Positions 18,372-44,635 of a stretch of DNA of 48,385 nt are shown here, piece by piece. The position numbers and the translations under genes were made by a program. The stretch is from Limnothrix sp. RL_2_0 (lineage in GTDB: Bacteria; Cyanobacteriota; Cyanobacteriia; Cyanobacteriales; MRBY01), in contig JAAUPR010000010.1 in the NCBI GenBank assembly GCA_012033055.1, positions 1 through 48,385 of the forward strand, given 5' to 3'. Within the stretch, counting starts at the first letter, position 1. Every line of letters begins with the position of its first letter. The notes under the pieces are model-generated. The model ran no database searches and was not told the DNA's origin. It worked only from the letters and a program-made list of their open reading frames with translations.

Positions 18372-21128
18372 TTGGAGCAAAAATATGGGCAGCCAATGGA
18401 AACGAATGCGCTGGGCGATCGCCCTTTATGTCTATCGATGGCAGTGGGGTTGGTGGATTTGCCGCAGAGTCCAATAATGCCTGTACATGCTCAAATGATG
18501 GCGACTGAGGGGACTTTTGCGCAGCAGTTACAATCCCTCGAAACTCAGGCTCAAACTTATTTGCAACAGGGTCAAATTGGTCTTGCGCAACAAACTTATG
18601 CGGCGGCGGCGACGCTGGCTAGGGATACTGCCCAAGATATTTTCGAGACAATTATTCCTCTGATCGGTGAGGTTCACCCTGCCCTTGGCTATGCGAATCA
18701 GGCGCTGACCTTCGCGCAAAAAAGTGGCGATCGCCCCCTCACGGCTGAGGCTTTAAATTTAGTCGGAATGATCCAGTTCCAAAGTGGTGGTACGAGTAAT
18801 GCTCGCAGTAATTACCAACAGGCGATCGCCATCCTGCAAGGTTCTCCAACATCCGCTCCCCAAGGCTATAGCCAAGTTCACCTCGGTCAAATCGAACAGG
18901 CGATCGCCAATTACCCTAAAGCCACAGCATTTTATAACGAAGGTCTGAATACGTTTCGCAGTGTGAACGATACAGCGGGGGAAATCTTTGCCCTTCAAAA
19001 TATTGCCGATCTCGCCCAGCAACAACGCAACGCGCCCGAAGCTCTGCGCACCTATCGTGAGGCTCTCCAACTTGCTCGTCAAACGGGTAACCGTAAAGCT
19101 GCCGCTGCCACCCTATTAGTGATGGGAGATTTACAAAAAGGCGATCGCCAATATGTCCTCGCCCAGCAACTTTATGAAGAAGCCCTAGAGGCAAACCAAA
19201 CGAGTCAAAACCTGCGAGAAAGGGGAAAAATCCTTAACCGTTTAGGTACATTAGCCCTCCGCACTAGCCAGCACACCGAAGCAATCAATCTATTGGAACA
19301 GGCTCTAACCGTTGCCCAACAGGCTGGAGATCTGACCGAACAGGGTTCCATTCTGCGCAATATCAGCATTAGCTACCAGCAACAGGGACGATATGAAGAC
19401 TCCTTTGATCTCTTGCAACAGTCTGCCCTTGTGTTTAATCAGATGGGAGTCCGAGCCTTAGAGGCGGAAGCTTTAGCGGAGATGGCCGCAACCCAGAATG
19501 CCCTCGGTAACCGGGAAATGGCGATTATCTATTACAAACAAGCGGTGCAGGTGGTGGAATCCCGCCGTAAAGATTTGACCCTAACTTTTCCTGCTAATGG
19601 CGATCGCCGCCTCGCTAATGTAGATGTCCGATTATTTACGCCCATTTATCGTCGCCTAGCGGATATGTTGATCGCAGACGATCGCCTGTCAGAAGCCCAG
19701 CAAACTTTAGATCTGCTGAAAGTGCAAGAAATCGATAGCTATCTGCGTACTGTAGAAGGAAATGAAATTACAGAGCAAGGCATCGCCGATTTACCGTCGG
19801 AACAGACCATTTTGGTGGAATACGAACCCCTTCGAGATCAGGCGATCGCCCTAGGCAAAGAACTCCTCGCCCTACGCCGCATTCCCAGCGTGGAACTAAC
19901 CTCCGCTCAAACCCAACGCATCCAAGAATTAAGTCAGCAACAACAAGATCTTACCCGTGCCTTTAGCGAATTTAGCCGCAGCCCCGAGGTGAAAGCCGCT
20001 TTAGCCAATGTCAGTGCCACTGCCCGCGAACAAAATCTCAGTTTAAATACTCTGCGCCGGGTGGCTGATAATCTGCGACAACTCGATGAACGCTCGATTA
20101 TTTTGTATCCCCTTGTGCTGGATGATCGCCTAGAACTCATTGTCGCCAGTCCTTTCGCCCCACCCATCCGCCATACAGTGAATGTTTCCCGCGAGGAACT
20201 GAATGCCACCATCGCCGACATGCGTACAGCCCTCACCACTCCCCGCCGCGATATCTCTGCTGCTCCCGCCAAGAAACTCTATGACTGGATTATTGCGCCC
20301 ATCGAAGAGGATCTCCAAGCCACCGAAGCCACGACGATTATCTATGCCCCTGATGATCAACTCCGGTATATTCCCCTCGCGGCACTGAATGACGGCGATC
20401 GCTGGCTCATTGAGCGATTTCGGGTGAACAATATTACCGCTGCGAGCTTGACTGATTTCACAAGTCAGCCTCCCTTGGTACTCAAGATTTTGGCAGGAGC
20501 CTTTACCCAAGGGGAATACGACATCAAAACCACCACTAGAGAATATATTTTTGAAGGGCTGCCGTTTGCAGGGACAGAAATCAACAATATCGTCGCCGCG
20601 ATTCCCAATACCCAAACATTATTTGATCAAAATTTTACGAAAGCCCAGACTGTTCCCCAGATGGATAATTTCAACATTGTTCACCTCGCTACCCATGCGG
20701 CTTTTGTCCCCGGTAAACCGAAAGATTCTTTTGTGCTTTTTGGCAACGGCGATCGCGTCACCCTTGAGGAGGTTCAGGATAGTTGGTTTTTGACCAATGT
20801 GGATTTGATCGTACTCAGTGCCTGCCAAACCGCAGTCGGTGGGGAACTGGGTAATGGGGAAGAAATTTTAGGGTTTGGTTACCTGATGCAAGATGCTGGA
20901 GCAAAGGCGGCGATCGCCTCACTGTGGTCAGTGTCCGACGGTGGAACCCAAGCCCTAATGAACCGCTTCTATGAACAACTCGTTTCCGGTGGTGTCAGCA
21001 AAGCCGAAGCCATGCGCCAAGCCCAAATAGCCATGATCAACGGGGAGTTGTCTGTAGATGATTCCCTCGGCGATACATCCCACCCCTATTACTGGTCGCC
21101 ATTTATTCTCATCGGCAACGGTTTGTGA
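18372..21128 (+). CDS. TPR-CHAT protein; signal peptide probably split by a one-base deletion
   Basis: 918 codons from a TTG at 18372 (ATG at 18396 in frame). About eight TPR units span residues 50-400, a helical linker follows, and a CHAT caspase-like domain covers about 600-918 with the His in HLATHAAF (about residue 775) and the Cys in LSACQTAVGG (about 817), so the dyad is intact. The in-frame N-terminus is an odd signal peptide. The other frame from ATG 18385 reads MGSQWKRMRWAIAL; one extra T in the run after the HIP1 at 18416-18423 would join it to LCLSMAVGLVDLPQSPIMPVHAQ, a textbook signal peptide. The protein is therefore probably exported. It converges on the VWA gene. Substrates are unknown. 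Confidence 0.85.
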   Translation: MEQKYGQPMETNALGDRPLCLSMAVGLVDLPQSPIMPVHAQMMATEGTFAQQLQSLETQAQTYLQQGQIGLAQQTYAAAATLARDTAQDIFETIIPLIGEVHPALGYANQALTFAQKSGDRPLTAEALNLVGMIQFQSGGTSNARSNYQQAIAILQGSPTSAPQGYSQVHLGQIEQAIANYPKATAFYNEGLNTFRSVNDTAGEIFALQNIADLAQQQRNAPEALRTYREALQLARQTGNRKAAAATLLVMGDLQKGDRQYVLAQQLYEEALEANQTSQNLRERGKILNRLGTLALRTSQHTEAINLLEQALTVAQQAGDLTEQGSILRNISISYQQQGRYEDSFDLLQQSALVFNQMGVRALEAEALAEMAATQNALGNREMAIIYYKQAVQVVESRRKDLTLTFPANGDRRLANVDVRLFTPIYRRLADMLIADDRLSEAQQTLDLLKVQEIDSYLRTVEGNEITEQGIADLPSEQTILVEYEPLRDQAIALGKELLALRRIPSVELTSAQTQRIQELSQQQQDLTRAFSEFSRSPEVKAALANVSATAREQNLSLNTLRRVADNLRQLDERSIILYPLVLDDRLELIVASPFAPPIRHTVNVSREELNATIADMRTALTTPRRDISAAPAKKLYDWIIAPIEEDLQATEATTIIYAPDDQLRYIPLAALNDGDRWLIERFRVNNITAASLTDFTSQPPLVLKILAGAFTQGEYDIKTTTREYIFEGLPFAGTEINNIVAAIPNTQTLFDQNFTKAQTVPQMDNFNIVHLATHAAFVPGKPKDSFVLFGNGDRVTLEEVQDSWFLTNVDLIVLSACQTAVGGELGNGEEILGFGYLMQDAGAKAAIASLWSVSDGGTQALMNRFYEQLVSGGVSKAEAMRQAQIAMINGELSVDDSLGDTSHPYYWSPFILIGNGL

Positions 21129-33202: not shown

Positions 33203-33285
33203 ATACTTTTTTGGGGTGGGCAAAAGATGGGATAAATTATGATCACGTCAGTGAGTCTGGAACCGCAAGTGGAGGGGTGAACAAA

Positions 33286-35234
33286 ATGCCGGGAGTGAAT
33301 CAAGGGGACGGCGGCGATCGCCCAAGTGAGTTGGATCTATTGCGGGATGTTTTGGGGGGAAGTGTTGGTCAAGGGGATGAGGCCCAAACCGAAGCGAAAA
33401 TTGCAGAACTAGAATCCCAAATGAATCAGATGCGGGAAGAAATGCGTGCCCAAGGAGATAAGGTACAAGATACTCTCCACCAGAAAATCGACGAGGTACT
33501 AAAAGCGCTACAGGTTAATCAGTTTGAGTCGGCCCAAGCGTCACCTACTTCGGTACAGCGATCGCCACAATCCAATCCTGCACCGCCAATTCTGTCACCG
33601 CAAATCCAATCGCCTGCTGCATCAGAACTTCGGCGATCGCCCCAACCCCCCCCTGTTTCTACACCGGCTATTCCTGTTCCCGCCCCCCTCAAACAGCAGC
33701 ACCCCTATACTCCTGTGCCGACACCTCCGGCTCCAGCACCTATTCATGCGCCCCCTGTGCCGACAGAAACCAATCCCCGTTTGAATAGCATGGGTGATTT
33801 AGATGCTTTTACCGAACAACTTAATGCCATTCTGCAACCAAACAATACGCCCCAAAATCCACCTAGTCCGCCGCCTGTTCTCACACCAACCCCTCCTTCA
33901 CCTGTCGCTATGACTGGGCGATCGCCTCACCCGGATCTGGATCATCCCCCGCTAACCAACCCTTCAGCAACGACAAATAATCCCCCCGTCACGAACCCAT
34001 CTGTCGTAAATTCGCCCGCAGTTGCTGCATCGGTCACTAATCCAACCTCTGTACCGAAGCCTTTGCCCCAAAGCACTTTCGAGCCAGAATCCCCCTCGCC
34101 TTCTCTGACTGTAATTGCCGAGGATCAGGCCACTCGCATTAATCAGCTCAAACAGGTCTTACGGGACGAAGATGTGGTGCAGCTCAGGCAGACTAACGAA
34201 AAATTAGATTTCAAATTGCGCCAAGTCGAAGATTATATTGCGTCATCCCAACAGCCGATCAATGATCTATTACCCCTGATGACTGAGCTAGTGCAGCTCA
34301 AAATCAAAGAAGCCAAAACCCTCGAACCTGCTCCTCCGACTAGTCCACCCCGTAAAGGAACGCCATGGGGCGCAATTTTTGCATTTTTGCTACTGCTGAT
34401 CTTGATTCCGTTGGGATTGTATGGTTATTGGCTCCGACGGGAACATCTGTTGGAACAGGATATGGCGATCGCCCTCACCGCCACCCCAGAACTTGCGATT
34501 TATCGTTTAGGTGCAGATGTCCAAGGAAATAAGCTCTATCTTACGGGCAAAGTTCCCAACGAAACCCTCCGCGACCGTGCCTCGCGATCGCCGCCAGTAC
34601 CTTACCCAGTCTCGAACTGAGCAACAATATTGTTATCGTAGATCCACTGCTTGATCCATCCCTACTCGATGACGAGATCAATAACATCCTCAATCCCCTC
34701 AATGCGGTTAATGGTATCCAAGTAACCCATAAGCTTGATGGCGATCGCCTCAGTCTAGATGGCACAGTTATCCAAGAAGCAGATATCAACACCATCATTA
34801 GCGCCCTAGAAAAGATCAGCGGCATTAACCAAATCACCAATAATATCCAAGTTCAGAGCCAGCCCATTACCACCCGCCTATACTTTGACCAAAACTCCGC
34901 AGCGATCAAACCCGACGACGTTGACCAAAAATTAAACCACGTCAAAGAATTTTTACAGCAGCACCCCAACTTAAACCTACGCATCATCGGCTATCAACAT
35001 CCCAGTGAATCCGCCAATGACGTTGCCCTAAAACGCGCCCAATCTACCCAGATTCTCCTCGAAGATCAAGGCATTGATCGACGCCGCATCATTGCCCTCG
35101 GTATTAACCAGTCTCCCCCCAATATCACCGCCGAAGATCCCATCTGGCTGAGTCGTACGATCATCTTTGAAATCCCAGAACCTATAAGCAACACTACAAA
35201 TACTACAGTTAATAATTCAGAGAAAACCCCATAG
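33286..35234 (+). pseudogene. BON/OmpA-domain membrane protein, broken by a one-base deletion
   Basis: The start ATG at 33286 has GGAGGGG 8 bp upstream. Frame 1 (to 34620) encodes a coiled coil, a Pro-rich linker of about 200 residues, one membrane helix (AIFAFLLLLILIPLGLYGYW) and the start of a BON domain, then runs into PVSN-stop. The frame one base over continues without gap: AIAASTLPSLELSNNIVIVD, the second half of the BON region and an OmpA-like domain (TTRLYFDQNSAAIKP ... IIGYQHP ... RRRIIALG) ending at 35234. One base is missing at the HIP1 octamer 34584-34591 (probably TCGGCGATCGCC originally). An intact product of about 650 residues would span the inner membrane and bind peptidoglycan. 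Real mutation or sequencing error cannot be told apart here. Confidence 0.8.
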
Positions 35235-35644: not shown

Positions 35645-35881
35645 ATGCTTAAGAAACTTTCTCTCGTGGCGATCGCCGTTGTTGGGACTTCTGTACTTTC
35701 CACTGCTCCAGCATCTGCAAATGCAGGTTCCTGTGGAGCAAACGAAGTATTCAATCCCAATACTTTTACCTGTGAACCAGTCCCCCCCATTCCTACCCCC
35801 GGAGCACTTCTAGCTGTAGTAACCATGGGTGGCGCAGCAATCCGCAAAAAGTTAAATCAAGATGCAGGCACAGGCGAGTAA
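35645..35881 (+). CDS. Small secreted protein with PTPA-CTERM-like sorting tail
   Basis: 78 residues. A clean signal peptide (MLKKLSLVAIAVVGTSVLST, cleavage after PASA) is followed by only about 25 mature residues (with Cys pair GSCGANEV and FTCEPV) and then a C-terminal tripartite tail: PTPG, a hydrophobic helix ALLAVVTMGGAAI, and RKK. This resembles the PTPA-CTERM/PEP-CTERM sorting signals recognised by cyanobacterial exosortase-like systems, with Gly in place of the last Ala. If so, it is a very small cargo anchored to the envelope. It precedes the giant surface-type gene by 262 bp on the same strand. No exosortase is in the window. Confidence 0.7.
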   Translation: MLKKLSLVAIAVVGTSVLSTAPASANAGSCGANEVFNPNTFTCEPVPPIPTPGALLAVVTMGGAAIRKKLNQDAGTGE

Positions 35882-36143: not shown

Positions 36144-39100
36144 ATGCCAGACAACATACTCGCTCTAAGCTCCGCCCTGCCCGACACTGTCACGTACGAA
36201 TATTCCTTGTTCAAGTTCTCCTTTGTTGGCGATTATCCAGACGATAGGCGAGGAGAACAAGACAGCTATTTTGACATCAATATCGAAGCAGGACCTCTTG
36301 CAAATACCTCTGGATATGATGCCTACTGTATTGACACAGACCGCGCACTGTATGGAGCCAATATCACCTTAGAAAATGCGAAAGTTTACTCCAGTTATGA
36401 AACATTACCTGACGAATTGACGGGCCCAGGCAAGATAGAAAAGCCAGAGAATCTCGATATTCTCAACTGGATTTATAATCAGCGCTTCGTAGGGAAAGAA
36501 TTGTTCGTTGATGCCCAAGGAAACTTCAACGTTGACGGCAATGGTAGCAGCTTAGGATTGGTTACCTACAGTGATATTCAAGTAGCCATTTGGGACTTTA
36601 TCGACGATGAAACCACAATTGATAATCCTGCAACCCCCAATGTAAATGAAGATGACGTTGCCATCTCAGATTACAGCCTAGATCGCATCGCCGCGATCAA
36701 AGCATTAGCCAGTGTGAATGGCGAAAACTTTGTTCCGTCTTTTGAATACACAACCATTTTCGGCGAAGAGACAACAGGTAAAATTGGTGTAATTCTAGAT
36801 CCCCAAGACGCAAATAGCTCGCAAATCATGATGATTGCAGTAGAGCTAGCAAAGGTCGGGGATTATGTCTTTGAAGATGTCGATGCCGATGGTATTCAAG
36901 ATGCCGGAGAGTCTGGCATTGCTAATACAACAGTAAATCTTCTTTCCGCTGACGGCTCCACCATCATCGCTACCACCACAACAGATGCGAATGGTAAATA
37001 CGAATTTGAAGTTATCCCTGGAGACTATAAAGTTCAGTTTGTCCAACCTAATGGCTTTGATAGTGTTAGCCCAGTAAACATCGAAACCGGTGCAGAAGGC
37101 GATGCTGGAGATTCAGATGCAGACCCAAGCAATAGTCTGATGTCTGATGTAATCAGTCTAGCTCCCGGAGAGGAGAACCCAACTATTGATGCTGGTTTCT
37201 ACAACCTTGCTTCCCTCGGTGACTTCGTCTTCCTAGACAACAATCAAGATGGACAACAAAATGCAGGCGATACACCAGTAGGTGGAGTAACCGTTGAACT
37301 CCTTCAAAATGGTGTAGTTGTCGCAACTACCACCACAAACCCAGATGGTTCATACCTATTTGATGGACTAGTCCCCGGTGACTACCAAGTTCAATTCACC
37401 TCCCCAGATGGATTCGTCTTCACCACAGCAAACGTCGGAGATGATGCGAGTGATAGTGATGCAGATGCCAATGGATTGACTCAGACAGTGACTTTACAGA
37501 GTGGAGAAAACAACCTCACCTTAGATGCAGGTCTCATTGAACTAGCTTCTCTCGGTGATACAGTATTCCATGACCGCAATGCAGATGGCATCCAAGATGC
37601 TGGAGAAGAAGGCATTGCCGGTGCCACAGTAGAGCTTGTTGGAGATGTTGATGGCGATGGAGATATTGATACCCTCACCACTACGACAGATGCCAACGGC
37701 AACTATAGCTTTGATGGCTTGACTCCCGGTGACTATACTGTCAACTTCTCTACTCCAAATGGTTTTACCGAATCTAGCCCGGCAAATATCGGTGGTAACG
37801 ATGCAATTGATTCCGATGGCGTTAGCGTTAGCACAACATTAGACGCAGGCGAGAATGACCCAACTCTCGATTCTGGTTTCTACAACCTCGCATCTCTCGG
37901 CGATAAAGTCTTCGAAGATGTAAATCGTAATGGTGTTCAAGATGATGGTGAAGCTGGTATCCCTGGTGCTGCTGTTGAACTTTATATCTGTGTAGATGGT
38001 TCACCTAGTGGCACTGCAGTAGCTACCACGACAACCGATGCAGATGGCAACTATAGCTTTGATGGCTTGATTCCCGGCGAATACATCGTTAAGTTCATCA
38101 CTCCCGATGGCTTTACTCAAACCACAGCCAATGTTGGTGATGATGCAGCTGATTCCGACGCTGGTGTGGGTGGTCTAACTGGTTGCTACACCCTTGAGTC
38201 TGGAGAGAATGAAACTACTGTTGATGCTGGTTTTTATCAACTCGTCGAAGGTGTTGACATTGAAAAATGGGTTAATGGTGAAGATGCAGATACTGCAGCC
38301 GAAGCAGTCGAAATTGCTCCGGGTGCTGATGCAGTCTTTGACTATTTCGTCACAAATACTGGAGAGGTTGGTTTTGCCGCAGCTGATGTAATTGTTACTG
38401 ATGACAACGGTACGGCTGGTGATACTAGCGACGACTTCAATCCAGAGCAAGTAACTATTGGTGGGTTTAACGTTGGTGACCTCGACCAAGACAATATTCT
38501 TGATGCTGGTGAAACTTGGAAGTACACCAAGACTTTACCTGCTGAGACTTTGGGGACGATTACAACAACGACAGTTCAGAATGTTATTGACTTTGATAAT
38601 GATGGTGCTGGCAACCCATTGTCTGCTGGCACAGTAATTGACACAGAGTATGCGAATCTCGGTTTGACAATTTCTGCGACAGGTGGCGCTGGTCAAGCAA
38701 TGATCTTCGACAGTGCCAATCCCACTGGTGGGGATGGGGATTTGGCAACTCAGAGTGAAGGTAATATCCTGATCATTTCTGAGGATGGCGACAGCTCTGA
38801 CCCTGACGATAATGCGAGTGGCGGCCAGCTAATCTTTAAATTTGATAAGGCGGTTGATATCAAGAACATCAACTTTGTTGACATCGAAGAAACTGGTGGC
38901 AAGGTCTTCACTACTGATGTCGATGGGAATGTAACGGTTACGAATATTCCTGCACCGGGTGACGGGACTCTGCAGACCTTAGCAATCAATGACGACAGTG
39001 TTGTTGAAATTGTTGTCAAACTGAAGGGTAGTGGTGCTGTTTCTGGTCTGGCTTTCGATAGCTTTGAGACGGATATTACTCCGGGTCTTTATACTAATAT

Positions 39101-41486
39101 CGGTAGCGTGACTGCTGGTACTGTTGGTGATGAGGATGCAGCAAATTATGTTAATCCTGATGCTGACCCCGGTATTAAGATTGAAAAATTCACCAATGGT
39201 ATTGATGTTGTTGACCTAAGTGACCTTCCTGAAATCACTGCTGGTGCTGCTGTTACCTTCACTTACGAGGTTTCTAATACTGGTAATGTTGCCTTCGCTA
39301 AAGCTGATGTGGTTGTTATTGATGACAATGGTACTGTTGGTGATACGAGTGATGATTTCACTGCAACTTACGTTAGTGGTGATGCGAATAATAACAACTT
39401 CCTTGATACCACCGAGACTTGGCTCTATACTTCCACGACTGAAGCGGCTCAAGATTTGAGTGTTGTCACTTCTTCTAATGATGTTCGCTTCTACCTCACA
39501 GGCAATAGCTACACCACTGGTTCTTACGGTAATACGCGTACTTTCACCTCTGAGGGGGTTTCGGTTGAGGCAAGTGCATTCAGCTATAACTCTTCTGCGG
39601 GTTGGAACACGGCTTATCTTGGTGCTTATGGTGGCGGCTTAGGTGTTACAAATCAGCATGAGAGTGGTTCTGGTCACCGCGTTGATAATGGGGGTAGTAC
39701 GGATTACATTGTGTTTGAGTTTGACGAAAGTGTTGTTGTTGACCGTGCGTTCCTTGATTATGTCAGTGGTGATAGTGATATCTCCATCTGGATCGGCGAT
39801 CGCCAAGGCGACATCACTAGCTTGAACGACACTATCCTCAATAGTTTCACTAGAGAAAATAATTGGGGCGGTGGTTATGACCGCTGGGCAGACTTCAATA
39901 ATTCGGAGGTTTCTGGCAACACCGTTATCATCTCCGCGATGAAGGGCGGCAGCAATGATTCATTCAAGATTCGCAAGCTCGATGTTCAAGTGGCTGGCGA
40001 AACTGTTATTGGTGACTACATCAATACGGCAACTGTCACAGCTGGTGATGTAAGCGATAGCGACCAAAGTGGTTACACCAACCCTGAGTTTGTTGCTGCC
40101 CCCGGCATTGATATTGAGAAGTTTGTCAACGGTATTGATGTCACTAACATCAATGACTTACCTGAAATTGCAGCGGGCACCGATGTAACCTTTACTTATA
40201 CCGTCGCTAACACTGGTAACGTTGCTTTCGCAAAACATGATGTTGTCGTCACTGATGACAATGGCACTGCTGGTGACACTAGTGATGACTTCACTGCTAC
40301 TTATGTCAGTGGTGATGTTAACGGCAATAACTTCCTCGATGTTGATGAGACTTGGACTTACACTTCCACTACTGAGGCGGCTCAGAATTTGAGTGTTGTT
40401 ACAGCGTCTGAAGATGTGACTTTCCACTTCTCCGGTAATAGCTATACCTCAGGTCACGTTGGCAATGTGCGTAATTTCTCTGCGGGTGGTATTGATGTTG
40501 AAGTCAGTGCGTTTAGTAAGTGGAAAATGTCTGGCTACGAAAACTACTACGAGAAGGCTTATCTCGGTGTATACGATGGTGGTTTAGGGGTTACTAACAA
40601 GTATGAGTATGGCTCTGAGCACCGCGTAGATAACAATATCGACATTGACTACATTGTTTTTGAGTTTGACGAAAGTGTTGTTGTTGACCGTGCTTTCTTG
40701 AAGTATGTTGGCAGCGATAGTGATGCGACAATCTGGGTCGGCGATCGTAATGGTGACCTTACATCCCTTGATAACGCCCTTCTTGACAGCTTCACTAAGC
40801 AAGATAACCACGTTAACCATGGTAACGATCGCTGGGCTGACTTCAATGACGTAGCAGGTAACACCGTTATTATTTCTGCCTTCACTGGCGGTAGTAACGA
40901 CTCCTTCAAGATTCAGAAGCTAGATGTTCAAGTAGCTGGCGAAACAGTTATCGGTGACTATATCAACACTGCAACCGTTACTGCTGGTGGCGTTAGCGAC
41001 AGTGATCAAAGTGGCTATACCAACCCTGAAACTGTTGACCCCATTCACTACGAAGCTGAAGACATGCACCTCTGCAACTACAAAGTTGAGCATGTCGGCA
41101 ACGCTGCTTCCGATGGCGAAGTGATTAAGCTCACTGCCCACTCAGGTTATGCAACACAAACCTTTGATGGCTTGACTGGCACTTACGACATTATTGTTGG
41201 CTACTTCGACGAAAATGATGGTCACACAAGTGCATCTGTTTCTGTCGGTGGTCATGTGGAAGCGTCTTGGGTCTGGAATCAAGACCTTGGTTCTAACTAC
41301 GTGGCTGAGCACAATCAAGCTCAATATATTATCGACAATGTCCACATTGGTACTGGCGATACTATCAAGCTCGCTGCAAACTATAACGGTGGTGAGTTTG
41401 GTCGCTTCGATTATGTGAAGATCGTTTCCTCTGACACAATTAGCTCTGTTGAAGAGGGTGTCCAAGACCAACTACTTATGGTCTAA
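36144..41486 (+). CDS. Giant repeat protein: SdrD_B repeats, DUF11-like units, C-terminal CBM-like domain
   Basis: 1780 residues, Asp/Thr/Gly-rich, acidic. An N-terminal domain (1-237; two Cys) is followed by four SdrD_B-type repeats of 110-120 residues at about 238, 356, 466 and 583, each with SLGDxVFxDxNxDGxQDAGE, a Ca-binding-like Asp loop, and TTTTDANGxYxFDGLxPGDY. Three units of about 310 residues start at 703, 1010 and 1321 (IEKFxNGIDV); each is a DUF11-like repeat with a second domain inserted near YTSTTEAAQ. The last 148 residues (HYEAEDMHLCNY...) look like a CBM6/35-type sugar-binding module. There is no signal peptide or sorting tail, so type I-like export is likely. The gene holds only one HIP1. 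Role: probably adhesion or envelope structure. Confidence 0.8.
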   Translation: MPDNILALSSALPDTVTYEYSLFKFSFVGDYPDDRRGEQDSYFDINIEAGPLANTSGYDAYCIDTDRALYGANITLENAKVYSSYETLPDELTGPGKIEKPENLDILNWIYNQRFVGKELFVDAQGNFNVDGNGSSLGLVTYSDIQVAIWDFIDDETTIDNPATPNVNEDDVAISDYSLDRIAAIKALASVNGENFVPSFEYTTIFGEETTGKIGVILDPQDANSSQIMMIAVELAKVGDYVFEDVDADGIQDAGESGIANTTVNLLSADGSTIIATTTTDANGKYEFEVIPGDYKVQFVQPNGFDSVSPVNIETGAEGDAGDSDADPSNSLMSDVISLAPGEENPTIDAGFYNLASLGDFVFLDNNQDGQQNAGDTPVGGVTVELLQNGVVVATTTTNPDGSYLFDGLVPGDYQVQFTSPDGFVFTTANVGDDASDSDADANGLTQTVTLQSGENNLTLDAGLIELASLGDTVFHDRNADGIQDAGEEGIAGATVELVGDVDGDGDIDTLTTTTDANGNYSFDGLTPGDYTVNFSTPNGFTESSPANIGGNDAIDSDGVSVSTTLDAGENDPTLDSGFYNLASLGDKVFEDVNRNGVQDDGEAGIPGAAVELYICVDGSPSGTAVATTTTDADGNYSFDGLIPGEYIVKFITPDGFTQTTANVGDDAADSDAGVGGLTGCYTLESGENETTVDAGFYQLVEGVDIEKWVNGEDADTAAEAVEIAPGADAVFDYFVTNTGEVGFAAADVIVTDDNGTAGDTSDDFNPEQVTIGGFNVGDLDQDNILDAGETWKYTKTLPAETLGTITTTTVQNVIDFDNDGAGNPLSAGTVIDTEYANLGLTISATGGAGQAMIFDSANPTGGDGDLATQSEGNILIISEDGDSSDPDDNASGGQLIFKFDKAVDIKNINFVDIEETGGKVFTTDVDGNVTVTNIPAPGDGTLQTLAINDDSVVEIVVKLKGSGAVSGLAFDSFETDITPGLYTNIGSVTAGTVGDEDAANYVNPDADPGIKIEKFTNGIDVVDLSDLPEITAGAAVTFTYEVSNTGNVAFAKADVVVIDDNGTVGDTSDDFTATYVSGDANNNNFLDTTETWLYTSTTEAAQDLSVVTSSNDVRFYLTGNSYTTGSYGNTRTFTSEGVSVEASAFSYNSSAGWNTAYLGAYGGGLGVTNQHESGSGHRVDNGGSTDYIVFEFDESVVVDRAFLDYVSGDSDISIWIGDRQGDITSLNDTILNSFTRENNWGGGYDRWADFNNSEVSGNTVIISAMKGGSNDSFKIRKLDVQVAGETVIGDYINTATVTAGDVSDSDQSGYTNPEFVAAPGIDIEKFVNGIDVTNINDLPEIAAGTDVTFTYTVANTGNVAFAKHDVVVTDDNGTAGDTSDDFTATYVSGDVNGNNFLDVDETWTYTSTTEAAQNLSVVTASEDVTFHFSGNSYTSGHVGNVRNFSAGGIDVEVSAFSKWKMSGYENYYEKAYLGVYDGGLGVTNKYEYGSEHRVDNNIDIDYIVFEFDESVVVDRAFLKYVGSDSDATIWVGDRNGDLTSLDNALLDSFTKQDNHVNHGNDRWADFNDVAGNTVIISAFTGGSNDSFKIQKLDVQVAGETVIGDYINTATVTAGGVSDSDQSGYTNPETVDPIHYEAEDMHLCNYKVEHVGNAASDGEVIKLTAHSGYATQTFDGLTGTYDIIVGYFDENDGHTSASVSVGGHVEASWVWNQDLGSNYVAEHNQAQYIIDNVHIGTGDTIKLAANYNGGEFGRFDYVKIVSSDTISSVEEGVQDQLLMV

Positions 41487-41650: not shown

Positions 41651-42620
41651 GTAACGTCAGTTCGGGATAAGAAAAGAGGGGTAGAGTAGGCTGAAAGTGT
41701 CCAAACTAAATCAATCTACTCACCCCATGACTAGTCTAGAAGAACTTTTTTGTAATGTGGACGATTTTTGTCAAATCTTTGAACCTCTCTGGCATCAAGA
41801 GCTGATTCAAAGCGGTAAAGTAACTCGTCTTCGCCCTCGTCGTTTGTGCCTCAGTGAAATTATGACTATCTTGATTTCATTTCATCGAGAATCCAACCGT
41901 AATCTTAAACATTTCTATGAGAAATATGTTTGTAAACACTGGCGAGAAGCCTTTCCAGCACTCGTTAGTTATCAACGTTTTATTGAATGGATACCATCCA
42001 CGATTGTGCCTTTCTGCGTTTATCTCCAACAATGTTTAGGCTCTTGTATGGGATTAGCTTTATTGATGCTACAAGTCTAAAAGTCTGTCATAACAGGCGT
42101 ATTCATAGTAATAAAGTCTTTGGTGGTCTTGCCGCTCGTGGTAAAACATCAGTGGGTTGGTTTTATGGTTTTAAGCTTCATTTAATCGTGAATGAATTGG
42201 GCGAATTGCTGAATGTTCAAATCACAGCCGGTAACAAGGATGACCGAAAGCCTGTCGAAGATTTGGTGAAAAAATTATTTGGCAAAGTCTTTGCGGATAA
42301 AGGATATATTTCTCAACCGCTAACGGATAAATTACGAGAGAGCTATGGCATTGAGTTTTTTGCAAAACCAAAACGTAATATGAAAAACAAACTAATGCGT
42401 CTAACGGATAAATTATTATCCAGAAAACGGTTCATTATTGAGACAGTAATCGACCAGTTAAAGAATATTTCACAAATTGAATATTCTCGTCATCGTAGCC
42501 CAGTAAATTGCTTTGTGAACATACTTTGTGGCTTAATTGCCTATTGTCACCAACCGAAAAAGCCTTCATTGCACTTGGACTGGGCATTACAGCCGACGGC
42601 TTAACCCGAATTCAGGTTAC
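41651..42620 (+). mobile_element. IS982-family insertion sequence
   Basis: About 970 bp. The ends carry imperfect inverted repeats: GTAACGTCAGTTCGGGATAAG (41651-41671) and the reverse complement of 42600-42620 (GTAACCTGAATTCGGGTTAAG), matching at 17 of 21 positions. Size and transposase fit IS982. No target duplication was found by eye. The right repeat contains the stop codon of the pseudo-orthocaspase gene (42617-42619). No HIP1 lies inside, unlike the host DNA around it. Confidence 0.82.
41697..42604 (+). pseudogene. IS982-family transposase, broken by a one-base deletion
   Basis: Frame 1 (GTG 41697, or ATG 41727, MTSLEELF) encodes the N-terminal half (SEIMTILISFHRESNRN ... SYQRFIEW) and stops at 42080. 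The overlapping frame continues from GISFIDATSLKVCHNRRIHS through KTSVGWFYGFKLHLIV, FGKVFADKGYIS and ETVIDQLKNISQIEYSRHR to 42604. These are the DDE catalytic blocks (Asp in FIDAT, Asp in FADKGY, Glu in IETVIDQ). Adding one G in the GGG run near 42049-42051 would join the frames as SCMGISFIDAT. No slippery heptamer is seen at the junction, so programmed frameshifting is unlikely. The element is probably not self-mobile unless the base is a sequencing error. Confidence 0.8.
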
Positions 42621-44635
42621 AACATCTCCGTAACTTCATAGACAAAGCGAGATGTCACCCAATTTTCGCTGGACAGTCGATAGTTTTCTTTATTGTCGTT
42701 CGTATCGGTGGGGGCTAGGTGTAAGTCTTTTAACAATGCCAAAACTAAGGGTAAAGGCTTTTCTATTTTGGTGGGGGTGGCTTCGAGTCCGGCGAATAAT
42801 TTGTCGAGTAAAAGTTGAAATTGTTTAAAAGGGCGATCGCTGCCGATCCAGTACGTATGCCAAGTGCCGAGGGGACGTAACGGCTCAAATTCGAAAGTGA
42901 CTTTTTTCAGGCTGCTTGGTGGCACCATCAAACCGGCTTGGGGGGTCAGCAGAATCAATTCCTGTTTAGAACTTTGGGCAAAACCAAGAAAATATAAGGG
43001 CTGGGTTCCCGCATTATTAAAGTGATAAAGCAGAGGTTCCCCAAGCAACACTTTGAGGTCGGTACGGCTCGGCGATCGCCCGATAGCCTGGGGAGTTTGT
43101 CGCTCAGCCAGTGGCGATCGCTTCGGTTCTAAACGATCTAAGCCCACAGTCATCGGTAACCGAGCACTCGTTTCATTCACCAACAACCGCAACCATTTCA
43201 GCGCTAATAATTGTTCAAAAATGGGTTGGAGCCGATCAACCGACGATTTAATTGCCTCATTTTCCTCTAGGGGAATCAGACCGGGAAGAGCATCTCCTGT
43301 CACAGAAAAAAGTTGATACCCAGCATCAAACACATAGTCAGCCCATTCTGGCGGATTACTAATGTTCGCAACGCCCACAATTCCAGCAAAAGCACTAGTG
43401 GCATCGACCCGCTCAATCCGACTTAAATTGTTCCCAAGGGCGATTTTTAAGGTGAGATTACGGGGATAAATTCTCAGTTTTTCTTGAATTGTGCTGCCCG
43501 CAGTGGGCATTGTGCCGGATGTTTTACCTTGCCCAAAGATGCCTGTTTTTGAGGTTAAGCGGATGGGCACAGCGTCGGAGCCAGCCGTTTGGAATTGACT
43601 ATTCGCGGCGATCGCCTGATAGATTTCCGGTTCGAGACCACTAAACAACAAATCTAGATTATTAGCATTCGTCGCAACAATTTGACCCGCTGCAGGCAAG
43701 GTCGTTTTCACTGGCAACAGACCATATAAAGGCGATGCTTTCGGTGCATTTAACTGCAACAATTCCGACCGGAGCTGCACCTGTCGGTAACAGAAACTGA
43801 GAAAACCTTGGGCTTCAGCCATCGTGACTTGGGGGTTGAGCGCCGTCACACAGCGAGCAAGGGAAACCGTAAACAAACCCGCAGCCGAATCATTCAGTTG
43901 TACTTCTGTGCCCCAACCCCGTTGCGCCGCCATTAACCGCAGAATCGATTTTTTGCCTAATTTCTGCTGCGCCAAAATGTACTGGAGCTGTTCGGCGATC
44001 GCCGTTTCGGAAGGATTAAAGCCCGCTGACAATGTTTTTGGATAAGTCCGTCCCCGCCAATAATGATGCCCAGCAGCACTAACCGGATCAAAACTAGTGT
44101 CCAACACCAACGCAGCCTGCGCAGGATTCAGCGATCGCATTAGCCCCTCTAAAGTCGCGACGGCGATCGCATTATTAATCGTCGTTTTCGACTGACCAAT
44201 AACCCCATCCACCGGCATAATAGCCGCCACTTGAGATTGATTCGCACTGAGGTTAATGCGTGTGCCATACCCACTAAAATGCACAAACAGAAAATCATCA
44301 GGGGTTAGCAACTCCTTCAAATCTTTCTGAAACATCGTAAAAATATTGTCCCGACTAGCCTCTCGATCTGTGAGAGTCAAAATGTCTTCAGGAGCAAACC
44401 CAAATTGATGCATCAACACCTGCTTTTGGATCCGGACATCCGTCAAACAGCCCGCCAGATTATCCGCATCGGAATAACCATTAATCCCGATCAATAAAGC
44501 AAATTTTCGACCTTTAAAAGTACTGAGGGCATGGGCATAGCGATCAATGTTTCGCCAAGACCATCGGTCTACTATGCCCAAGGAAACAAGCGTCAATCCT
44601 AACCTTTGTAAAAAGTCGCGCCGATTCAATCCCAT
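42617..44635 (-). CDS. Pseudo-orthocaspase (caspase-fold protein lacking the His/Cys dyad), Tat signal
   Basis: 672 residues. The N-terminus MGLNRRDFLQRLGLTLVSLG has a twin-arginine export signal. A peptidase C14 p20-like domain spans about 43-290 (KFALLIGINGYSDADNLAGC). The usual HxSGHG has become HFSGYG, so the catalytic His is Tyr123; the usual DxCH has become DTSF, so the nucleophile Cys is Ser181. The dyad is therefore Y/S, a substitution known among cyanobacterial orthocaspase pseudoenzymes. The C-terminal part has a DUF4384-like module (LLGEPLLYHFNNAGTQPLYF). It is probably a folded, non-proteolytic periplasmic protein. The last codons (EVTEML) run into the IS982 terminal repeat, which supplies the stop codon, so the original C-terminus may be altered. 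Confidence 0.82.
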   Translation of the reverse strand: MGLNRRDFLQRLGLTLVSLGIVDRWSWRNIDRYAHALSTFKGRKFALLIGINGYSDADNLAGCLTDVRIQKQVLMHQFGFAPEDILTLTDREASRDNIFTMFQKDLKELLTPDDFLFVHFSGYGTRINLSANQSQVAAIMPVDGVIGQSKTTINNAIAVATLEGLMRSLNPAQAALVLDTSFDPVSAAGHHYWRGRTYPKTLSAGFNPSETAIAEQLQYILAQQKLGKKSILRLMAAQRGWGTEVQLNDSAAGLFTVSLARCVTALNPQVTMAEAQGFLSFCYRQVQLRSELLQLNAPKASPLYGLLPVKTTLPAAGQIVATNANNLDLLFSGLEPEIYQAIAANSQFQTAGSDAVPIRLTSKTGIFGQGKTSGTMPTAGSTIQEKLRIYPRNLTLKIALGNNLSRIERVDATSAFAGIVGVANISNPPEWADYVFDAGYQLFSVTGDALPGLIPLEENEAIKSSVDRLQPIFEQLLALKWLRLLVNETSARLPMTVGLDRLEPKRSPLAERQTPQAIGRSPSRTDLKVLLGEPLLYHFNNAGTQPLYFLGFAQSSKQELILLTPQAGLMVPPSSLKKVTFEFEPLRPLGTWHTYWIGSDRPFKQFQLLLDKLFAGLEATPTKIEKPLPLVLALLKDLHLAPTDTNDNKENYRLSSENWVTSRFVYEVTEML

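Follow-up and report, generated by a model that had tools for sequence, protein, structure and literature searches.

A cyanobacterial adhesin-like protein with a predicted isopeptide sandwich repeated as a frame around unlike nested domains

Introduction

Isopeptide domains are mainly known as the pieces from which stalks are built. A 1780-residue protein encoded by Limnothrix sp. RL_2_0 raises the question of whether a domain of this kind can also serve, repeatedly and at one fixed position, as a holder for other domains. The gene lies in the window analysed here, the whole 48,385-nucleotide stretch of contig JAAUPR010000010.1. The first-pass annotation had proposed that each of three units in this protein begins and ends as one β-sandwich repeat with a domain inserted at the same place, forming a modular design for surface display.

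The computed features described below, namely the nesting, the common junction, the conserved residue triad and the presence of unlike inserts in like frames, agree with the structural part of that proposal. Regarding the protein as a whole, we consider it about 75% probable that it is a secreted fibrillar adhesin, composed of a thioester domain as grip, SdrD_B domains as stalk, and isopeptide-closed frames carrying exchangeable lectin-like inserts. The term display reflects what the domain content suggests.

Architecture of the gene and its product

A single open reading frame encodes the protein, which is probably surface-exposed, and its coordinates and three units of approximately 310 residues (starting at residues 703, 1010 and 1321) are as first annotated. 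Table 1 lists its segments. Export, perhaps by a type I route, is a guess, because neither a sorting signal nor a signal peptide was found in the 1780-residue protein.

Table 1 Segments of the 1780-residue protein, with positions in the window and the evidence for each
Feature	Residues	Position	Strand	Evidence or key residues
Surface/adhesin-like protein	1780 aa	36144..41486	+	Single ORF
Thioester-domain fold, N-terminal	1-236	36144..36851	+	Predicted model; Cys62/Gln146 conservation
SdrD_B (CnaB-like) stalk, four domains	~237-702	36852..38249	+	Pfam PF17210, E 1.6e-123, 4 stretches
Unit 1 frame, first part	703-799	38250..38540	+	Lys708, Asp753 of predicted triad
Unit 1 insert	806-981	38559..39086	+	ISEDGD-type jelly-roll domain, without Pfam family
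Unit 1 frame, second part	982-1008	39087..39167	+	Asn985
Unit 2 frame, first part	1010-1100	39171..39443	+	Lys1015, Asp1060
Unit 2 insert	1106-1290	39459..40013	+	XDP1-like, CBM29-like fold; NF041927 E 5.5e-18; 1gwm Z 9.5
Unit 2 frame, second part	about 1291-1318	40014..40097	+	Asn1294
Unit 3 frame, first part	1321-1411	40104..40376	+	PF24346; Lys1326, Asp1371
Unit 3 insert	1417-1604	40392..40955	+	XDP1-like; NF041927 E 1.5e-16
Unit 3 frame, second part	1605-1631	40956..41036	+	Asn1608
C-terminal 'EAEDM' module, un-nested here		41037..41438	+	Homologue frame-nested in Crocosphaera (L102)

Each unit is one sandwich split by an inserted domain

Each unit consists of a sandwich of the DUF7507/DUF11 type (CLIPPER_2/CLIPPER) interrupted by a domain of approximately 175-190 residues. 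The first frame parts of the three units, referred to as A halves and compared over residues 703-797, 1010-1098 and 1321-1409, share 54-79% pairwise identity (z 23-32 against shuffles), and the second parts, or B halves (residues 982-1008, 1292-1318 and 1606-1632), share 46-89% (z 7.6-16 against shuffles). Between inserts 2 and 3 the identity reaches 68% (z 50), whereas insert 1 resembles either of them only at background level (21-23%, z about 2), which bears out the claim that unit 1 carries a different domain.

Splicing the inserts out in silico tends to restore the frame as a single domain. The whole protein scores 32.4 bits against DUF7507, above the Pfam cut-off of 27; among the spliced single units, unit 3 exceeds the cut-off (31.0 bits, versus 27.2 for its A half alone), and unit 2 (26.4) and unit 1 fall below it. 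Unit 1, where the frame is divergent, gained no DUF7507 score from splicing (16.5 before, 15.1 after). A DUF11 match in unit 3, covering positions 3-106 of 114, appears only once the insert is removed, and in the related locus L044 the same operation raises the DUF11 score from 52.3 to 66.8 bits, with coverage of positions 1-113 of 114. Insert-free frames with contiguous halves exist among the relatives (L041, L100 and L106), some of which combine uninterrupted and insert-bearing frames within one protein.

Structure prediction, proposed in the first pass as a check, was run on residues 700-1322, comprising units 1 and 2 (AlphaFold2 model ma95cb1f89413, 34 sequences, mean pLDDT 85.8), and gave no indication of ordinary consecutive domains. 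Because model residues 1 to 306 align to contiguous Ig-like domains of approximately 83-103 residues (6fhn, 8ayh and 2v5s; the alignment to 6fhn 816-918, for example, comprises 99 residues at 2.5 Å), the strands on either side of insert 1 are predicted to form one sandwich, a pairing read from the ranges of the structural alignments. A Foldseek search with the entire 623-residue model returned only multi-domain background matches. Splice scores, uninterrupted relatives and model thus agree on one sandwich frame per unit, split at the same place, and support the frame-and-insert reading.

A conserved Lys-Asp-Asn triad flanks the inserts

The names CLIPPER for DUF11 and CLIPPER_2 for DUF7507 were coined recently in a report (PMC12617251) that describes a CnaA-like fold with a Lys-Asn isopeptide bond and a helper Asp, demonstrated for DUF11 and predicted for DUF7507. 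All three units show the CLIPPER_2 arrangement of a Lys on the first strand, an Asn on the penultimate strand and an Asp (residues in Table 1). Lys and Asp lie before the insert and Asn after it, which places the insert in the loop preceding the Asn strand. In an alignment of 15 frames, some bearing one of four kinds of insert and others uninterrupted, together with the L043 pair, these three residues account for three of the nine invariant columns.

Across a wider set, Asp and Asn are retained in 113 of 113 distinct nested frames, many of which are paralogues or orthologues and so not independent; one clipped row was read by eye for Asn. Lys is likewise retained in all 113, counting nine rows read by eye in which a long A-B loop leaves the first strand outside the aligned piece. 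Asp and Asn are 39-65 residues apart where a frame is uninterrupted and 208-265 apart where it is nested. By splicing and by the model, a whole domain is thus inserted within a loop of a predicted isopeptide sandwich, and the Lys-Asn bond predicted from the sequence would join the two parts of the frame on either side of that domain. A profile of the spliced frames searched against PDB sequences matched no isopeptide domain.

These observations bear on an alternative in which the units are ordinary consecutive domains, and what follows each insert is either a linker or the opening of another repeat. XDP1-like domains do occur un-nested elsewhere, either between SdrD_B domains (L118, L120 and L125) or in tandem (L119, L129 and L130), as such an arrangement would allow. 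However, both the splice tests and the model contradict it, uninterrupted frames hold the two halves contiguously at the short Asp-Asn spacing, and the Asn is kept in every nested frame; we therefore regard consecutive domains as very improbable.

Fold and relatives of the insert domains

In the model, the two inserts (model residues 110-277 and 409-585) align with jelly rolls, including Ape1 and the carbohydrate-binding module CBM29; the CBM29 match is moderate (Z near 9-10), a likeness of fold that shows no function. No insert matched any carbohydrate-binding module in Pfam. We take the inserts to be jelly rolls resembling carbohydrate-binding modules, and the predicted fold suggests that they may bind ligands.

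A domain search for each insert, also suggested in the first pass, matched inserts 2 and 3 to NF041927 (XDP1; E 1e-17 to 1e-16) and left insert 1 without a Pfam family. Taken singly, inserts 2 and 3 score 65.8 and 61.1 bits, about half the equivalog cut-off of 125, and they differ further from XDP1 in being nested in frames and lacking a PEP-CTERM signal. They therefore represent a domain homologous to XDP1 and not an XDP1 protein. Profile comparison between the families of inserts 1 and 2 was not significant (probability 2.4%); both are jelly rolls with a faint common motif, and the two families may be remotely related. A single profile match of the ISEDGD insert to Protocadherin-18 (E 6e-4) was judged to reflect similarity of acidic motifs and was rejected. 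The ISEDGD domain also occurs free-standing with a PEP-CTERM signal (L022) and, as read from sequence, fused to SGNH-esterase-like (L054 and L055) and haem-peroxidase-like (L056) proteins.

Further insert types in the same loop

The homologue survey envisaged in the first pass yielded further inserts at this junction. The same loop holds at least five types across Cyanobacteriota, Planctomycetota and Pseudomonadota: the XDP1-like and ISEDGD domains; a third domain of approximately 205 residues, with two copies in L048 and one in the gammaproteobacterial locus L115; a fourth of approximately 190 residues in L043 (Limnofasciculus baicalensis), found in no other genome among the 291 searched; and a fifth in Crocosphaera (L102, residues 788-945) that shares 40% identity (z 21) with the C-terminal module of the 1780-residue protein. 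The variety lies mostly within two families, the other types being known from one to three frames each. A PF24346 search sampled 244 genomes from the phylum, and the 30 loci read from it held no further type. The nested position of the C-terminal module type in L102 shows movement between nested and free positions.

This distribution can be read in two ways. The isopeptide-closed frame loop might be a general socket, a natural plug-in display in which binding modules were recombined across phyla independently of the frame; we advance this tentatively, at a little under even odds. Alternatively, the frame could be a passive spacer, in which a few ancient nested units arose by chance insertion and were duplicated in tandem, with no selection for exchange. 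Units 2 and 3 are evidently duplicates (68-89% identity), and insert labels cluster strongly on the frame tree, where they require 12 changes, compared with 43 in shuffles and a minimum possible of 5. In this tree, which has 146 columns for 104 rows and of which the strongest splits alone were used, the starred branches force just 2-3 changes per label. Nevertheless, five kinds of insert at one junction need repeated insertion or exchange, and so do two further observations. Neighbouring frames in L043 have A halves that are 85% identical but inserts without detectable similarity (27%, z 2.1), and the XDP1-like insert occurs both in CLIPPER_2 frames and in the classic CLIPPER frames of cyanobacteria such as Nostoc and Calothrix, separated by a fully supported branch of length 3.05. 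A purely passive spacer consequently appears rather unlikely to us.

The junction before the Asn strand is strongly favoured though not exclusive, because Planctomycetota also have inserts in the A-B loop and L041 has them beyond the Asn strand. The planctomycete ISEDGD domains (L083, L084, L085 and L088) were considered as same-junction cases and rejected, since their actual location is the A-B loop of the frame that follows, as at residues ~650-850 of the 2001-residue ORF of L083. They are flanked by cysteines (EKCVE ... VECLD), possibly forming a disulphide at the neck. In L041, where the frames are mostly uninterrupted, an ISEDGD domain is located after the Asn strand, and residues 145-270 contain an uncharacterised segment of approximately 100 residues, also after the Asn strand, marking a second acceptor site.

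A separate observation concerns the stalk fold. In the Zoogloea locus L136 (ORF on the + strand, frame 3), an SdrD_B (CnaB-like) domain is seemingly split at residues ~590-750 by a domain of approximately 150 residues beginning LITNGSFESG, which also occurs in L127 and L135; L137 holds an uninterrupted counterpart. SdrD_B, a second stalk fold, may thus accept inserts too.

Terminal domains and distribution

The model of residues 1-236 (m9855459080ce, pLDDT 79) places the N-terminus among thioester domains: thioester-domain or Cpa entries fill the first 12 ranks of the PDB structure matches (Z 7.8-10.6, led by 5a0g at Z 10.6, with Cpa 2xi9 at Z 10.0), and the next match falls to Z 2.4. The expected thioester partners are conserved across 10 sequences, Cys62 being nearly invariant and Gln146 invariant. 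We name the region 'TED-like' because its Pfam score against TED (PF08341) is below the cut-off (18.1 bits versus 22, E 0.004). Its fold is predicted to be that of a thioester domain, and the conserved pair suggests thioester reactivity.

Of 291 genomes from the order, 45 carry the C-terminal module, which, as judged by eye, is often repeated and in some proteins adjoins SGNH-like sequences. Its conserved 'EAE' start presumably recalls CBM6/CBM35 modules. Two relatives from the same genus share the conserved C-terminal tail; therefore the gene has not been shortened by the transposase gene downstream.

The 1780-residue protein occurs in three of six same-genus genomes searched, the source genome included. 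XDP1-like domains, most of them nested, are present in Cyanobacteriota (Okeania, Crocosphaera, Symploca, Calothrix and Nostoc), Planctomycetota (Phycisphaeraceae, Stieleria and Rhodopirellula) and Pseudomonadota (Nitrosomonas, Accumulibacter, Thiobacillus and Roseomonas). A genome contig search with the whole three-unit region as query gave no match, and the frame relatives were recovered by alignment-based contig search. No similar DNA was found on plasmids.

A different role for the inserts would follow if the protein were a structural component of an S-layer or extracellular matrix, with the inserts making lattice or calcium-dependent protein contacts and not binding ligands. The acidic conserved motif ISEDGDxxDPDD may point to calcium, the C-terminal module weakly matches the PS2 S-layer protein (E 0.003), and descriptions of the XDP1 family say no more than that it is an exosortase-dependent surface protein. 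Patchy presence within the genus and a mosaic architecture are nonetheless unusual for an S-layer, and the thioester-domain fold points to adhesion, so we consider a structural role unlikely.

Proposed mechanism and relation to known systems

In the adhesin that we favour, the N-terminal thioester domain would probably bond covalently to a partner surface, and the four SdrD_B domains would form the stalk. Within each frame, an isopeptide bond would link the first-strand Lys to the penultimate-strand Asn with the assistance of Asp, and the loop right before the Asn strand would hold a CBM-like jelly roll. Such a bond would join the two chain segments beside the insert, leaving the insert to hang sideways on a closed, mechanically stiff frame. 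The loop would tolerate various modules, which evolution seems to have exchanged, because folding of the frame would need the frame strands alone.

Isopeptide sandwiches that hold an inserted binding domain are already known from RrgA, GBS104 and Mfa5 (PMC7835359, PMC7893114). In Mfa5 D2 of Porphyromonas gingivalis, a von Willebrand domain is inserted between strands B and C, with the bond at Lys111-Asn518 (PMC7835359, PMC7893114). Mfa5 D2, RrgA D2 and GBS104 resemble the units described here in that a CnaA-like sandwich is split by a whole domain, with Lys and Asn on either side. However, theirs is a single dedicated von Willebrand A insert, placed between strands B and C and located at the tip, whereas the 1780-residue protein has tandem frames in which several alternating families of inserts, the modelled ones jelly rolls, precede the penultimate, Asn-bearing strand. 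CLIPPER and CLIPPER_2 domains share with its frames the sequence, the triad, tandem use in surface proteins and Gram-negative hosts, but the passages of PMC12617251 consulted describe compact stalk domains of 7-9 strands and mention no inserts of 175-190 residues preceding the Asn strand. According to that paper, domain insertions in loops are tolerated by both CnaA and CnaB folds.

The N-terminus likewise resembles that of thioester-domain adhesins (Cpa, SfbI, the Clostridium perfringens TED and TIE proteins) in fold, in the Cys/Gln pair and in the isopeptide-type stalk that follows. The matched structures are Gram-positive, whereas this protein is cyanobacterial, scores below the TED cut-off and has a stalk with nested frames; the model would thus place a thioester-domain adhesin fold in cyanobacteria.

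What is new is that the frame is repeated and takes interchangeable inserts at a single junction, an arrangement of which no description was found in the literature searched, which included few subscription journals. Here, in Gram-negative bacteria, an isopeptide domain would be a holder open to repeated use. The predicted bond would close the chain around the insert, and this bond would explain the stability of a domain opened by nearly 200 residues. Such a frame may offer protein engineering a natural loop-display scaffold, and it provides a setting for surface-domain families without a Pfam entry, namely the ISEDGD domain and the L048 and L043 inserts.

Gene neighbourhood

Just upstream of the gene, a 78-residue ORF (35645-35881, +) begins much like a signal peptide and has a PTPGALLAVVTMGGAAIRKK tail that resembles sorting signals of the PEP-CTERM type; it matched no NCBIfam family. 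Further upstream, a region at 33211-35234 (+) has an OmpA-like end, as judged by eye, and a seeming frameshift near 34600, the frame of 33211-34620 resuming in another frame to ~35234. Directly 3' of the gene lies a transposase remnant (DDE_Tnp_1_3) in two overlapping frames (41697-42604, +), adjoined by a gene for a caspase-domain protein (Peptidase_C14; 42617-44635, -). A TPR-CHAT protein is encoded in the same window at 18372-21128 (+).
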